DNA of 64,000 nucleotides from Thysanoteuthis rhombus (lineage: Eukaryota > Mollusca > Cephalopoda > Oegopsida > Thysanoteuthidae), in assembly GCA_963457665.1 (NCBI GenBank), contig OY735215.1, positions 30,369,041 through 30,433,040 of the forward strand, in the 5' to 3' direction. This document shows positions 55,718 through 59,559 of the stretch, piece after piece; position 1 is the first letter of the stretch; each line of letters starts with the position of its first letter. A program made the position numbers and the translations under genes. Under the pieces are notes generated by a model. It worked only from the letters and a program-made list of their open reading frames with translations. It did not search any database and was not told where the DNA came from.

Positions 55718-56339
55718 ATACCTATTTGTATGATACATAAATATATCCTTCATTTTTTATGATTACTATGCTAGTTTATACTTGAGATTAAGTGGAGACA
55801 CCATTATGTAAAAATAAAATACAGTTGTATAAAAGATAACCATTGTATACAAACATTTTAAAAGAAACTACTGTATCACAATAATTGGTAACTGCTGAAA
55901 AGCAGTACATGTAGCAATATAAATATAAAAATCACTATAGAACTCTCAACACATTTTTCAAATGCTTTCTCCTTTCAGAAAAGAAATTATTAAAAATTTG
56001 GCAATTAAAAAAAGTAAAAACATCTGCAGTCAATTCTACTTCATTTAACAGTTCTGGGAAAAAAATCAGGTTTAAAAGCACTTGTAAATAAAGAATTTTG
56101 ATACTTCATCTCAAATATGGAAGTATTGTTTCATCAATTAAGTAAAGTGACTTACTGCAGTTAACAATGCAGCAAATTCAACAAAATAAAATGAATTATG
56201 TTCAGTGCTACTCACCCTTTCTGTCTTCTCCCTGAGCAATTTCAGCAAGATACCGGTAATAGTCGCCCTTCATCTTCAAATAAAATACTTTGCTTTCTTC
56301 CCCAGATGCTTTGGGAATTAAATATTCTGCCAGAAGATT
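32803..56339 (-). CDS. 14-3-3 protein, divergent paralog (gene 2; first coding exon outside the window)
   Basis: Coding exons on the minus strand are 56339-56216, 46090-45918, 34682-34587 and 32853-32803, all with GT-AG introns. They encode the C-terminal 60% of a 14-3-3 adaptor protein: [12 protein letters not shown] to [36 protein letters not shown] to [25 protein letters not shown] to [23 protein letters not shown] and stop. The phosphate-binding R-Y pair, the helix-7 N and E, and the C-terminal N and W are kept. Differences from gene 1 and from the family are [12 protein letters not shown] instead of [18 protein letters not shown] instead of VFYYEI, and three extra residues in the loop before PTNP. 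Exon 1 (about 104 codons) must lie beyond 64000. Intron positions and phases equal those of gene 1. Introns are far larger (1.7, 11.2 and 10.1 kb). Confidence 0.93.
33020..34065. mobile_element. Candidate DNA transposon/MITE with terminal inverted repeats
   Basis: GCACCACTGATTTTCCGGCA at 33031-33050 is matched in inverse by TGCCGGAAAATCGGTGGTAT at 34031-34050, 17 of 20 positions complementary, with weaker AT-rich pairing outside. The two ends enclose about 1 kb without a long open frame, so the element is non-autonomous. It lies in the last intron of 14-3-3 gene 2. The superfamily is not identified, and the target duplication is not clear because the flanks are AT-rich. Confidence 0.6.
33121..33340 (+). 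repeat. tRNA-Val-like SINE
   Basis: TAGTGTAATTGTTAGCATG (A box) is followed by an anticodon-arm-like ATGCCTAACATGTAGAAGG and TCCTGC. This tracks the middle of animal tRNA-Val(AAC) closely. The B box is degraded, so it is a SINE head, not a tRNA gene. A tail with CATCCTGCCAAGTATGTGG follows. It lies inside the inverted-repeat element. Confidence 0.5.
34587..34682 (-). CDS. 14-3-3 gene 2, coding exon 4
   Basis: The 96-bp exon has acceptor CTGTTGCAG and donor GTAAGT. It encodes [20 protein letters not shown], then [12 protein letters not shown]. Same length and phase as in gene 1. Confidence 0.94.
38350..38445 (+). repeat. tRNA-like SINE fragment
   Basis: GTGTAACAGTATTTAGAGTA resembles an A box (GTGGTGCAGTGGTTAGAGCA type). 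It is followed by CTAAGCTATAGGTTGAAAGG and a B-box-like GAGTTGTATTCCCGG. Order and spacing fit a decayed tRNA-derived SINE head. Confidence 0.45.
40722..40875 (+). repeat. Possible decayed SINE
   Basis: GGTGTGGATGGTCTAATGCA resembles a degraded A box and GAGTTCAAACTGAGAC a degraded B box about 45 bases later. AATTCCCTTGGAAAAATCAT resembles common SINE bodies. This is a weak call. Confidence 0.3.
41000..41435 (+). mobile_element. LINE 3' fragment (reverse transcriptase C-terminus), broken
   Basis: On the plus strand, [20 protein letters not shown] is followed by LKLRTKQSA, a stop, [15 protein letters not shown] and [19 protein letters not shown]. The A-E-T-W and K-W-Q-W-x-x-H-V-A-R blocks are typical of the region just after the reverse transcriptase domain in endonuclease-type non-LTR retrotransposons. 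An AT-repeat insertion at about 41309-41340 and several stops interrupt it. It ends near TCAGAAGCTAGAAGACTGAT with a GATGAT tail. It is truncated at the 5' end, the usual outcome of target-primed insertion. Confidence 0.75.
42525..42600 (+). repeat. tRNA-like SINE fragment
   Basis: TTTGGTAGCCTAATGATATT (A-box-like) is followed by ATAAAGGTATGGGAGTTCAATCC, whose end is B-box-like, then TCAACCAAAGC. This fits a decayed tRNA-derived head, lying next to the 3' end of a LINE fragment. Confidence 0.4.
42700..43225 (-). mobile_element. LINE 3' fragment (reverse transcriptase C-terminus), broken
   Basis: On the minus strand the frame reads [18 protein letters not shown], then [20 protein letters not shown] and [14 protein letters not shown]. 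After a frame change it continues with [16 protein letters not shown] and [18 protein letters not shown]. It aligns with the fragment at 41.0 kb but is a separate, better preserved copy in the opposite orientation. It ends at a (GAT)n tail at about 42705-42725. It is truncated at the 5' end and carries at least one frameshift. Confidence 0.8.
44104..44832. mobile_element. pogo/Tigger-like MITE
   Basis: The left end TAGTAGTCCCTTGAATTTTG and the right end, read on the opposite strand, TACAGTAGTCCCTCTAATCT, form terminal inverted repeats bordered by TA. TCCCTYGAAT-type ends followed by a GCGG/TGCGAA-rich subterminal region are characteristic of pogo/Tigger non-autonomous elements. The 0.73-kb interior has no transposase. 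It contains a G run near 44785. Confidence 0.6.
45918..46090 (-). CDS. 14-3-3 gene 2, coding exon 3
   Basis: The 173-bp exon has acceptor TTTATTTCAG and donor GTAAGT. It is nine bases longer than its counterpart in gene 1, giving three extra residues between the DIATG helix end and PTNPIRLG. The usually invariant histidine of [10 protein letters not shown] is asparagine here. Confidence 0.93.
48790..49284 (+). mobile_element. Tc1/mariner-type transposase relic
   Basis: The best-preserved part, about 49135-49284, reads [20 protein letters not shown], then [27 protein letters not shown] and stop. This has the layout of the transposase C-terminus in the Tc1/mariner superfamily (segment-length helix, H-L-I-x-A-C-x-x-F, then an E-x-x-G-F-I-E ending). 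Upstream, YNSAKHTI may mark the region of the second catalytic aspartate but stops and frameshifts intervene. It is inactive. Confidence 0.6.
50312..51347 (+). mobile_element. Inverted-repeat DNA element, copy B
   Basis: The left end TGAACCCTCATTAAAAGAGA, followed by GGTCCATTTTAGCCGATTGT, is answered on the right by AAGAGGGTCCATTTTAACAA and GGTTTCA at about 51319-51347 in inverse orientation. The element is about 1 kb and ends against an (AT)n microsatellite. A 64-codon open frame at 50931-51125 (ending [17 protein letters not shown]) may be a relic of a coding region. The left 150 bp match the element at 20.4-20.7 kb, and the interior matches 52.65-53.11 kb. Confidence 0.55.
51349..51392 (+). 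repeat. (AT)n microsatellite
   Basis: About twenty AT dinucleotides lie directly at the right end of the inverted-repeat element. Confidence 0.95.
51580..52180 (+). repeat. Degenerate tandem repeat, two full units and one partial
   Basis: Units share GGCTGGAGCTATGACC / GGCTAGAGCTATGTCC, then a GAGCATGTTTT / GAGTACGTTTTTAGC block, then a GTCTGCATTTTTGTTC / GTCTACATTTTTGCTC block, and end in a GATAATGATC-like stretch followed by ATTGTAGCC. Full units are at about 51585-51790 and 51955-52170. A partial unit lies at about 51850-51930 (TTTGTGCTCACTCTGATAAT). Divergence is high. Confidence 0.6.
52655..53110 (+). repeat. Second copy of the 50.6-51.25 kb repeat, internally deleted
   Basis: Matching blocks in the same order include GTATGTCCAAT, ACAAACCATCTTTCAGAAA (50.8 kb: ACAAATCATCTTTCAGAAA), GAGTCCAGATGCAGGATTT (51.1 kb: GAGTCCAGATGCATGATTT) and GGTAAAAGTTTACAATAG. 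It lacks roughly 120-150 bp of the interior including the open frame of the first copy. Confidence 0.65.
53690..54090 (-). mobile_element. LINE endonuclease-domain fragment joined to a LINE-like 3' end
   Basis: On the minus strand, [20 protein letters not shown] is followed, after a frameshift, by [40 protein letters not shown] and [17 protein letters not shown]. This is the start of an APE-type endonuclease domain of a non-LTR retrotransposon (family pattern: TYN-RTL, K-WDI-G-SE-R, GEEL-LKSGH, VGF-INK, D-I). It then runs into GACAGACACCAGAAAGCTGA and GACGATGAT, which resembles a LINE 3' terminus. The reverse transcriptase region is missing, so the copy is internally deleted. Confidence 0.7.
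55682..55714 (+). repeat. (AT)n microsatellite
   Basis: About sixteen AT dinucleotides lie in intron 2 of 14-3-3 gene 2. They explain the poly-YI stretch of an overlapping open frame. Confidence 0.95.
56216..56339 (-). CDS. 14-3-3 gene 2, coding exon 2
   Basis: The 124-bp exon has acceptor TTTTACAG and donor GTGAGT. It encodes [19 protein letters not shown], then [20 protein letters not shown], then RK plus one base. Its length and phase are identical to exon 2 of gene 1. Confidence 0.94.
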
Positions 56340-56682
56340 CTGTAAAACAGAAACCAAACACATATCAAAATCAATGACAGATTTTCAAGGTTTAGAGAAA
56401 AATTCAACTCATATTTATGAGAAATAATTACAAGTTTCAAATACTTCAGGATTGAATACATATGAAACAAAAGAATCTTTCCACTCTTAAATTCATGAAC
56501 CGCTGATAAACACTTGATTTGTTAATTAATACACCGCTGCCAACCACTTGGAAACAAACAACTCTCAAATAAACAATATAAGGACCAAAACACTTCTGCA
56601 CTGAAGACAACAATTGTTACACATTTAGAGAAGAAAAAAATTAGTATATCTCGGAATTTTTGAGATGAGGTATTATTATTTC

Positions 56683-56946
56683 CATTATTATTCGGACCAT
56701 CCTCATCTTTGTTGTTTTTTATACAACGTTTCGGCCGTTGCACTCTACGGCCTTCGTCAGGTATCATCTGGGAGATTTTTGGGAAGTAACGAACCGAACC
56801 CTTTATTTATCCGACGGGGGTATATCGACCGTACTCCCCTCTTTCAGCGTTAGTAGTATTGTTATACTGCCTCACACTAGGATCGAACCTAGTACCATCA
56901 GATTACTTAACAGTAATTTGTCTGATGCTGTAACCACTGCGCTATG
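56683..56946 (-). mobile_element. tRNA-derived SINE, left copy, opposite orientation
   Basis: This is the reverse complement of 56951-57214 with no mismatch found. It has the same A and B boxes and central block on the minus strand. Its 3' end at 56683 has no A tail and runs into AT-rich sequence (TATTATTATTT). Confidence 0.85.
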
Positions 56947-57214
56947 GACACATAGCGCAGTGGTTACAGCATCAGACAAATTACTGTTAAGTAATCTGAT
57001 GGTACTAGGTTCGATCCTAGTGTGAGGCAGTATAACAATACTACTAACGCTGAAAGAGGGGAGTACGGTCGATATACCCCCGTCGGATAAATAAAGGGTT
57101 CGGTTCGTTACTTCCCAAAAATCTCCCAGATGATACCTGACGAAGGCCGTAGAGTGCAACGGCCGAAACGTTGTATAAAAAACAACAAAGATGAGGATGG
57201 TCCGAATAATAATG
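56683..57214. repeat. 264-bp inverted repeat with 4-bp spacer (two head-to-head SINEs)
   Basis: Arms are 56683-56946 and 56951-57214 with spacer GACA. Every position compared pairs, and translations of the two strands across the arms are identical except at the spacer. Each arm is one tRNA-derived SINE lying head-to-head, so the 5' ends meet in the centre. The right arm runs into an A run (57215-57243); the left has no matching T run. The 11-mer GAAAAAAATTA occurs on both sides (56633-56643 and 57244-57254) and could be a target duplication of the whole unit, but it is AT-rich and may be chance. Confidence 0.95.

Positions 57215-57243
<29 letters not shown>
56951..57243 (+). mobile_element. 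tRNA-derived SINE, right copy with poly-A tail
   Basis: The A box TAGCGCAGTGG lies at 56953-56963 and the B box GGTTCGATCC at 57008-57017, so the head is a tRNA-type RNA polymerase III promoter. A body of about 190 bp follows. It includes CGAAGGCCGTAGAGTGCAAC and GGCCGAAACGTTGTA (57140-57174), a small hairpin-forming block of the kind seen as a conserved central domain in several animal SINE families. The element ends in a 29-base A run. Confidence 0.85.
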
Positions 57244-57245
<2 letters not shown>

Positions 57246-59559
57246 AAAAAATTATTGGTACATATAATTAATGTGAAAAAACCCAAAAAAAGCAAAACAA
57301 AAAAAAACAAGTAAAGCATTCATATCAACATTATCTGAAAGTTTCATAATATAAGAATTAATAGAGAAATCACACCTAAAGAGACATAGCCAATTTTTGT
57401 CCTTGCATGAGTGGGAGGTAGAAAAATAGCTGACATAATATGAAGTTGAGAGTTCAAGTATTTGTCTAACGAGAATATTCAAAGAGAATGCTTCCTAATT
57501 TCTTCAAATGAAATAATTTCCGTATCAAGGACCTTACATTCTACAGCTTCTAATGCCTGCTCTATGTCCAACCAAATTATTGGAACCTTTGGACAACTAT
57601 AAGTATGTCTTCCCCCTCAAATATCTTGGTTTTGTGACAAACAGTGCATTGGTCTTTGTTTAATCTGGAAAAAACTAAGGACACACAAGTAAATAAATAA
57701 ATGATAAAATTCAATTACTAGCTGGTGACATCTATCTAATTTTTTGTTAGAAAGTATGTTTTAGAGAACAAAAAAAAATTGCTTTAAAAAGGTAATTCAA
57801 AGAAATTTCAAGTTATCTCCATTGTGAAACAAAAGATAATGCATCTTGGTACAGTGATAGACTTTTTAATATAAGTATTCCTTCTAGTAATTCAAATATG
57901 AAAATTTTCATTGAAATCTATCTGTATATCTTTGTAATGGGAAAAAGTTTATTCTACAACCTTCATAATGTAAGCACCATTTTTAGTAGAAGGGTTATAT
58001 GTGAACTAGCATTATGTCTTCATGATTTCCTTGAATTAGAGTCAAATAATTTTTTTATTTAGTTTCTTACATCATAGCCAAACATGTAAATCAGTATGTC
58101 TGATTGGTCTGGTCCTATTATAACCTAGAAGTTATAATAGATTTGTCTAAATGAAATACTCTAACAGAGCAAATTAAACAATAAAAGGGTTGTAAAGGAG
58201 ATATTCTTCTTTGTTATGGCAACAGACTTTGTTGAAATTTTAATAGACAATTCTCACAGAAACGCTGATTGTTTGAAACTAAGATAAAAGGGGTAAAAAA
58301 AAAAAGAGAGTGTGTGAATGACTGTAAGAGAGAAAGAGTCATTGGTGTTAGTGAGCGAGTTAAAGTCTGTTGGCATAACAATATACAATTGTGTCACAGA
58401 GACGGTGTTCGTTTGAGTCAAAAACTGGTTGAAGAAATAAGTGTGTGAATGACTAGAACAAAGATTCGAGTAAGTGAGTTAGAGAAAGTGTGATGTAATG
58501 GATGAGTGGATTATAGGAAGAGAAGAGTGATTCGGTAAGTCTCTCTTTCTCCTCCCCTTTTTTTCATCTTTTAGATGTAGCTAACTTTGTGATAACATTG
58601 TAATACTCTCAACACACACATATGCACAAAAAAAATTTTTTTTTTAAATTTAAAAATACTTTCGCAGTAAAATCAAAATTGCTCAAAATTTTTAAATGGC
58701 CAAACCAAGAAATTTCATGTCTAAAATTCAAATAAAACCAATCTTTCAACTAGTAGCAGCTTTTACTTCAAATCTATCTCATATAATTTAGGTTTGAACC
58801 ATCTTTTGCATTGTATGTGTAGGTGCATTGTTGAGATTTGGGGAATGAATGTTTTCAAAAGTGATTTGCCTAAAATAGTACTAATCATTAGAGCCATTGT
58901 TTCTATAAAAAAATTAAAAAAAATTAAAAAAAAACTCAATAAATGATGAGAAGTACATAAATACATTAAAAAAAATAATATCAGAAAAATGACTTTTGAC
59001 CAAACAAACTAATCTGGGGTTCGAAAAGAACTTTTAGTTGAAAATCTATTGATAGGAAATCATTCATTCCATTTATAATAGATCCAAAATGTATAAAAAG
59101 AAATATGAATTTGTTTTTTTAGAGTTTAAAGGCCAACTAAATTATGGATTAAATAATGACATTCATTGTTGTATGGAGAATAAGTCCTAATAGTCCCGTA
59201 GTCTACTAGAGTCCCATAGGAGTTTTCAAGCCAACAAATGAAACCAATTGGACATGTTAGAGAGAACTTGAGTAAGAATATTTAGTATGGATATTCCAGA
59301 TCAAATAAATTGTGAATAAATTTCAGTGTCATTTTTTATAATGGCTGATTTTTGCCGTAGTGCCTTAGACTGAGAAAAGAGAAAAGAAAAAAAATAAGGA
59401 CCTTCCACGCCTCAAATAGGGGCATATTGTTTATCATTGGAAAGGAAATTTCATGCTTAGTCAGGTCAACAGAAGATCCATATGGCTCATGCAAGTCCCT
59501 TTATGTTATTGTCAACCAAGAATCTTGTTTTAAAATGAAATAGCTGTGTGGTCATAGCT

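Follow-up and report, generated by a model that had tools for sequence, protein, structure and literature searches.

The 64,000-nt stretch analysed here, called the window below, covers positions 30,369,041 to 30,433,040 of contig OY735215.1 (assembly GCA_963457665.1) of the cephalopod Thysanoteuthis rhombus. It contains a long palindrome built from what we identify as two inverted copies of the pseudo-long terminal repeat (pLTR) of a Penelope-like element (PLE). The two arms, 56683-56946 and 56951-57214, are complementary at 264 of 264 positions around the 4-nt spacer GACA. As RNA, these 532 nt are predicted to fold into a single hairpin of −521.7 kcal/mol (z = −59). No second inverted match of at least 30 nt within 2 kb was found elsewhere in the window when words of one or two letters were excluded, and a chance origin of the palindrome is thus excluded. 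The first-pass annotation had described 264-bp arms without mismatch around a 4-bp spacer. These coordinates are right, yet incomplete, because the whole unit extends from 56644 to 57243.

The left arm reaches 56644 via a tail. This tailed arm (56644-56946, minus strand) corresponds to positions 313-11 of the element reference. Past the shared 264 bp it continues for 39 nt, GAAATAATAATACCTCATCTCAAAAATTCCGAGATATAC (minus strand, 56644-56682), which comprise the remainder of a GGAAA site and the tail and run up to a flanking direct repeat. The untailed arm (56951-57214, plus strand) is the same pLTR and, with the hinge included, starts at reference position 4 (56944). The hinge, ATGGACACAT (56944-56953), consists of an ATG that fits both arms (56944-56946), the unpaired GACA (56947-56950) and the first bases of the right arm. 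At its outer end the untailed arm terminates in a run of 29 A (57215-57243, plus strand) preceded by ..AATAATG. In comparison with other copies, the left arm retains the element's full 3' end, and the right arm stops at the shorter of two usual endings. By likeness to a PLE studied in vitro (PMC11167929), the outer end of the 39-nt stretch may mark the distal site at which reverse transcription began.

A 13-bp direct repeat, AAGAAAAAAATTA, flanks the unit at 56631-56643 and 57242-57254, and the first two A of the right copy lie within the A run. The window scored 13 in a comparison of its own two flanks. Its left flank reached at most 8 against the right flanks of 44 other loci; its right flank, compared with the 44 other left flanks as a control for the A-rich repeat, reached 13 once and at most 10 in all other cases. 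The first-pass annotation had suspected an 11-bp repeat and insertion as one unit, and the longer target-site duplication (TSD) found here bears this out. The insertion is also recent, as had been proposed, because all 264 paired bases are unchanged.

Both arms begin at the hinge with a tRNA-like head, in which we take two motifs to be the A and B boxes. The A box, TAGCGCAGTGG, lies at 56953-56963 of the right arm (plus strand; mirror at 56934-56944, minus strand) and the B box, GGTTCGATCC, at 57008-57017 (plus strand; mirror at 56880-56889, minus strand). Further from the hinge, the tailed arm holds the start of a PLE reading frame, MIPDEGRRVQRPKRCIKNNKDEDGPNNNGNNNTSSQKFRDI (56644-56767, minus strand), which continues into the PLE body in the loci L109 and L110. 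The same start is present in the untailed arm (57130-57214, plus strand), where it reads MIPDEGRR..DGPNNN and then enters the A run. The pattern of a tRNA-like head followed by the first codons of a PLE open reading frame (ORF) identifies the supposed short interspersed element (SINE) of each arm as a pLTR, on the evidence of two full PLE copies in the genome. The earlier view of two SINEs is therefore replaced by that of two pLTRs.

We found further support for this identity in longer copies, some of which carry a poly(A) stretch and an ORF upstream of the head. In L038, a 721-aa part of the ORF matches RVT_1 (E = 1.7e-9) and weakly matches group II-like reverse transcriptases in PDB (4.8e-5); 1115 nt of the element stand inverted in front with 100% identity, and a TSD of about 15 bp was read by eye. 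Two long PLE copies, C20 and C5, carry the repeat without tail at their 3' ends (reference 1-279 and 1-278) and a partial direct repeat at their 5' ends (177-313 and 188-313) that runs unbroken into the ORF, MIPDEGRRVQRPKRCIKNNKDEDGPNNNGNNNTSSQKFRVILTNRYG. Ahead of the 5' repeat lies a short inverted piece with the tail (312-260 in C20 and 312-181 in C5). Both copies follow the same plan of one tail per insertion, with TSDs of 12-13 bp read by eye. According to passages of PMC3846280, a pLTR with the first codons, a tail a few codons further, an inverted pLTR and a TSD form the published plan of PLEs. No GIY-YIG match was obtained, and the assignment to PLEs is therefore based on the reverse transcriptase, on the pLTR and its tail, and on the structure of the insertions.

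Three other readings of the unit were dropped or not claimed. A poly(A)-tailed SINE moved by a long interspersed element (LINE) was dropped since the true 3' end lies beyond the poly(A) site. A 3' end shared with a LINE partner, as in SINEs, was not what we saw, for the unit is common to the PLE over its whole length; no separate LINE search was made. Hammerhead ribozymes are common in the pLTRs of PLEs, though not a requirement, and a sequence resembling a hammerhead core, CTGACGA..GAAAC, is visible by eye in the present pLTR. A hammerhead ribozyme has been shown for the PLE PAc (PMC11167929), whereas no hammerhead was among the Rfam matches of the Thysanoteuthis rhombus pLTR up to E = 1 and E = 5, and none is claimed here.

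The insertions were sampled from the whole genome (2.73 Gb in 514 contigs). We fetched 102 loci (L006-L107), namely the best 40 of 2379, 40 of 2091 and 40 of 546 scored candidates together with the exact hinge places. Because top-ranked matches were chosen, young copies are over-represented. Forty-five loci were kept as distinct opposed-arm insertions reaching the 3' region; left out were 13 repeats of the same insertion, 43 loci lacking terminal arms in opposed orientation and one with no terminal arm at all. Among the 45, 16 were found by a query holding the tail and 29 by queries without it. Such a search for further joined units had been suggested in the first-pass annotation. A nearly whole palindrome was matched on both strands at no fewer than 11 further loci among the best 40 of 2379 candidates, and the exact hinge pattern occurs at 28 places including the window. 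Among the best 40 of 2091 candidates for arm plus tail, 24 carry an inverted untailed arm in front. The inverted double is thus the commonest product among the best-matching copies, with the full palindrome as its limit case. The other 16 include L059, with an inverted inner piece, and L052 and L069, in which nothing but a T run separates the TSD from the tailed arm's head. The untailed end carries such a run, of T or A, in L052, in L069 and in the window (57215-57243).

The outer ends of these insertions follow a strict rule. All 45 distinct opposed-arm insertions combine an arm that ends at reference 307-313 with one that ends at 271-286, and no end lies in between. All 29 insertions from the tail-free searches obey this one-tail rule, for which the chance is at most 0.5^29 if the ends are independent. 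At the hinge places, both arms extend into the 3' region in 17 of 28, and the rule holds in 17 of these 17; in the remaining 11, one arm or both are shorter. The search with the tail alone (best 40 of 546 candidates, read without fetching the loci) revealed seven nearby inverted pieces. Six of them stop before the tail, and the seventh, with which the C20 PLE begins at its 5' end, contains it. A TSD score of at least 11 was reached by 42 of the 45 insertions; among mismatched flank pairs, 21 of 1980 scored that high. The TSD often overlaps the outer end of the untailed arm by a few A/T-rich nucleotides, which is expected if the target strand primed there.

We compared the two arms of each insertion. 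In the window, reference positions 4-284 are present in the untailed arm and 11-313 in the tailed arm, so that the right arm has 7 extra nt of the element 5' end. Each arm contains sequence absent from the other, and hence neither was copied from the other. In L007, L012 and L014 the tailed arm is shorter at the hinge by 19-21 nt, compared with 7 nt in the window. In L024, L025, L027, L030, L034 and L036 the tailed arm is cut at 186-265 and the untailed arm is full. Copying of one arm from the other is incompatible with the sequences of these ten clean loci (six cut short and four shorter at the hinge, the window included). A script that sorted the 45 insertions by arm length gave 15 with a short tailed arm, 16 with a short untailed arm, 13 with both arms full and one with neither (L089).

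The arms of one locus also share variants. Locus-private variants are present in both arms of L013, L016, L018, L062, L067 and L080. Across 29 arm pairs, 26 of 543 comparisons were discordant (4.8%); in 5000 re-pairings the discordance averaged 17.4% and never fell below 11.6%. The discordant comparisons are confined to six loci (L012, L014, L015, L016, L081 and L082) and are mostly deletions in one arm. At 26 close junctions, 18 share 1-6 nt, one abuts and seven have 1-2 extra nt; the window shares ATG.

Some inner structures are less regular. In L013, L084, L086, L089, L091, L095, L099, L101, L104 and L107 one arm lacks an inner stretch and its head is kept at the hinge. These inner losses look as if the centre of the palindrome had been trimmed after insertion, or as if the enzyme had jumped while copying. 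L011 (the same as L056) and L062 have a third short inverted copy of the head between the arms, as if copying had jumped back again.

The A box and B box of the head are intact and their starts are 55 nt apart. The head scored 25.2 bits against the Rfam tRNA model, under the gathering score of 29, and ARAGORN found no tRNA in it. Its first 26 nt occur in 1298 exact copies genome-wide, and 61 exact heads lie in PLE context. Fifty-three of the 90 arms of the 45 insertions start at reference 1-11; the A box lies 12 nt downstream of position 1. An 11-nt motif that precedes the head in PLE copies is absent from 39 of the 45 units and present in six. These starts suggest that the template was probably a discrete short RNA, a putative RNA polymerase III (Pol III) product starting about 12 nt upstream of the A box. 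The pLTR would then behave as a SINE-like unit dependent on the PLE.

Based on these results, we consider the palindrome to be a single insertion of a short non-autonomous PLE transcript, in essence the tRNA-headed pLTR, that was primed from both target ends and whose cDNAs were joined; the probability of this reading is put at roughly 0.72. It is read from the TSD, the same pLTR in both arms, the two fixed outer ends, the ten loci in which neither arm is a copy, and the shared private variants. Cleavage of the two target strands by the PLE protein would be staggered by about 13 nt. The 3' ends thus exposed would both serve as primers for reverse transcription, either of a single RNA or of two RNAs from one source. 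One of them would start at the distal, tailed site, the other some 32 nt upstream, at the A-rich GGAAA site. The two cDNAs would reach, or nearly reach, the 5' end of the RNA, and their 3' ends would anneal (ATG with CAT in the window) before fill-in. One enzyme on the distal site may force the other onto the upstream site of the same RNA, and this occupancy would account for the strict one-tail rule. A purified PLE protein was shown in vitro to cut both strands and to extend them, with initiation at two internal sites bounding the tail (PMC11167929). A reverse-transcription origin, one of the options in the first-pass annotation, is supported. A broader statement can be made with evenly divided confidence: PLE integration may be a symmetric two-ended target-primed reaction in which each 3' overhang uses its own fixed start on the same RNA, and a pLTR with a putative Pol III promoter may have become a SINE-like parasite of the PLE that usually inserts as the inverted double.

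The nearest competitor of this two-ended reaction on a single RNA keeps the same plan and supplies two RNAs, one per target end, each copied and then joined. That both arms span the same sequence is easy with two templates, and a dimer of the PLE protein is predicted in PMC11167929. However, private variants are common to both arms, and re-pairing lifts the discordance from 4.8% to a mean of 17.4%, so that two RNAs would need one source copy; moreover, two free RNAs would not be expected to alternate so strictly between the start sites. We regard two RNAs as possible, though doubtful. Snap-back or self-priming, in which one cDNA or antisense RNA would turn back at the element's 5' end and serve as its own template, is less probable still. 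Palindromic head-to-head hinges and identical arms would follow from it, shared private variants are expected of a copy too, and passages of PMC3846280 propose it for the inverted PLE pLTRs of Adineta vaga. On the other hand, the tail is on a single arm in 45 of 45 insertions, each arm has sequence that the other lacks in the ten clean loci, and TSDs adjoin both outer ends. A simple fold-back, as in the first-pass annotation, fails in the window itself, where the left arm has the extra tail and the right arm 7 nt of extra element 5' end. Snap-back was thus dropped as a general mechanism on the tail asymmetry and the order of arm lengths; it may still explain the short arms found only at the hinge.

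Fold-back chimeras are a known class of artefact, and identical arms could be produced by one during library construction or assembly. The TSD around the unit, its unequal outer ends, the 28 exact hinge places and the graded arm lengths at many loci with different flanks make this origin, also raised in the first-pass annotation, very improbable, since the 45 opposed-arm insertions follow the same rules in other flanks. Two separate SINE insertions that met head to head by chance are hardly credible at all. The head is common enough for such meetings (1298 exact copies of its first 26 nt), but a single TSD encloses the unit, the arms of one locus share private variants and the hinges recur at the 5' end of the element. 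A second TSD between the arms was not seen at the 3-nt shared hinge.

Several observations weigh against the two-ended reading and should be set beside it. Eight of the 15 insertions scripted as having a short tailed arm (L013, L084, L091, L095, L099, L101, L104 and L107) keep a piece of the head at the hinge and are better read as internal deletions, and a ninth, L040, has other sequence between the arms. The second arm is only 26-45 nt long at the hinge in several of the 28 hinge loci (e.g., L020, L090, L094, L102, L103 and L105), which possibly fits a short snap-back or a later deletion instead. Forty-four of the 102 loci are unusable for the one-tail rule (43 without an opposed terminal pair and one without a terminal arm). 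An A run at the untailed end was counted automatically in five of 45 insertions and its origin is unexplained; slippage on GGAAA would be a guess. A GIY-YIG endonuclease gave no Pfam match in the PLE C-terminus up to E = 10, where two weak matches to unnamed PHROGs were the only ones. The motif VYSIPCSCGHEYTGETCRP resembles that of GIY-YIG and is a candidate for it. Finally, no difference in start site was seen in vitro between the top and bottom strands (PMC11167929), and this result does not explain the rule of one start each.

The PLEs of Adineta vaga (Pen2a_Av and others) resemble the present element in many respects. Passages of PMC3846280 describe a pLTR with the first ORF codons, an inverted pLTR in front, a tail of about 30 nt on one inverted pLTR, a TSD, palindromic inverted junctions and solo pLTRs; for the inverted pLTRs the authors of that 2013 study favour self-priming on an antisense template. 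Those passages describe no tRNA-like head, and our case also differs in that head-to-head pLTR pairs often stand by themselves. The Poseidon element PAc of Anolis carolinensis is alike in its two internal starts bounding the tail, in the cutting and extension of both strands and in its A/T-rich targets (PMC11167929). It differs in that the strands showed no start-site difference in vitro and joined double-ended products were not described. How a PLE insertion is completed was left open in that 2024 in vitro study, which called the later steps "yet to be validated" (PMC11167929).

Inverted pLTRs, one-sided tails and internal starts are thus already known. We found no tRNA-like or SINE-like pLTR, no frequent solo palindromic pLTR pairs, no rule of one tail per insertion and no SINE moved by a PLE in the open-access literature, as covered by titles and abstract openings. 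The tRNA-derived SINEs are short, multicopy, non-autonomous elements that have a tRNA-like head with A and B boxes and are mobilised by LINEs. The pLTR unit has the same type of head; it differs in lying wholly within the 3' end of an autonomous PLE and in forming insertions with inverted PLE arms. In human L1, twin priming lets the second strand of the target prime at an internal site of the RNA, and the cDNA ends join over short homology. That process splits one sequence into two parts, whereas here the two arms contain the same sequence and may overlap completely. An L1-type split with little overlap was not found: the window arms overlap by 264 bp, and both arms are full in 13 of 45 insertions.

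A young family of near-identical insertions bounded by TSDs allows models of insertion to be separated by sequence. The features that discriminate between them are the single tail per insertion, the occurrence of either order of arm lengths and the private variants common to the arms. With its tRNA-like head, such a pLTR would amount to a SINE-like parasite relying on a PLE instead of a LINE. The case also shows genome projects that a perfect palindrome of this kind need not be an artefact.

Automatic annotation requires caution with such hairpins. The Rfam model mir-2807 matched the window at 56907-56990, on both strands across the hinge, with 59.4 bits against a gathering threshold of 54. 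Another palindrome of the same family (L110) matched the unrelated models MIR7533 (E = 1.2e-26) and MIR5998 (E = 1.2e-20), neither of which reached its gathering score. These matches to other microRNA models indicate that long perfect hairpins of this kind attract microRNA hits, and a microRNA mir-2807 was rejected.

The palindrome lies near a 14-3-3 gene on the minus strand, whose exons were found at 56306-56211, 46022-45921 and 34682-34587. The nearest exon (56211-56306, minus strand; tblastn 81% over 32 aa) is given as context only, and the unit begins 338 bp upstream of it. The first exons of this gene were not found in the window and are either outside it or too diverged. The intron location given in the first-pass annotation is probable from the position of the unit. 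If transcribed within an intron, the palindrome could form a double-stranded RNA of 264 bp. The window holds two 14-3-3 genes in all, placed tail to tail (8535-14279, plus strand, and 56306-34587, minus strand). Long overlapping open frames of short repeated peptides occur in several frames at 10922-12548 (plus strand) and 12374-13136 (minus strand), and they look like a tandem repeat and not genes.
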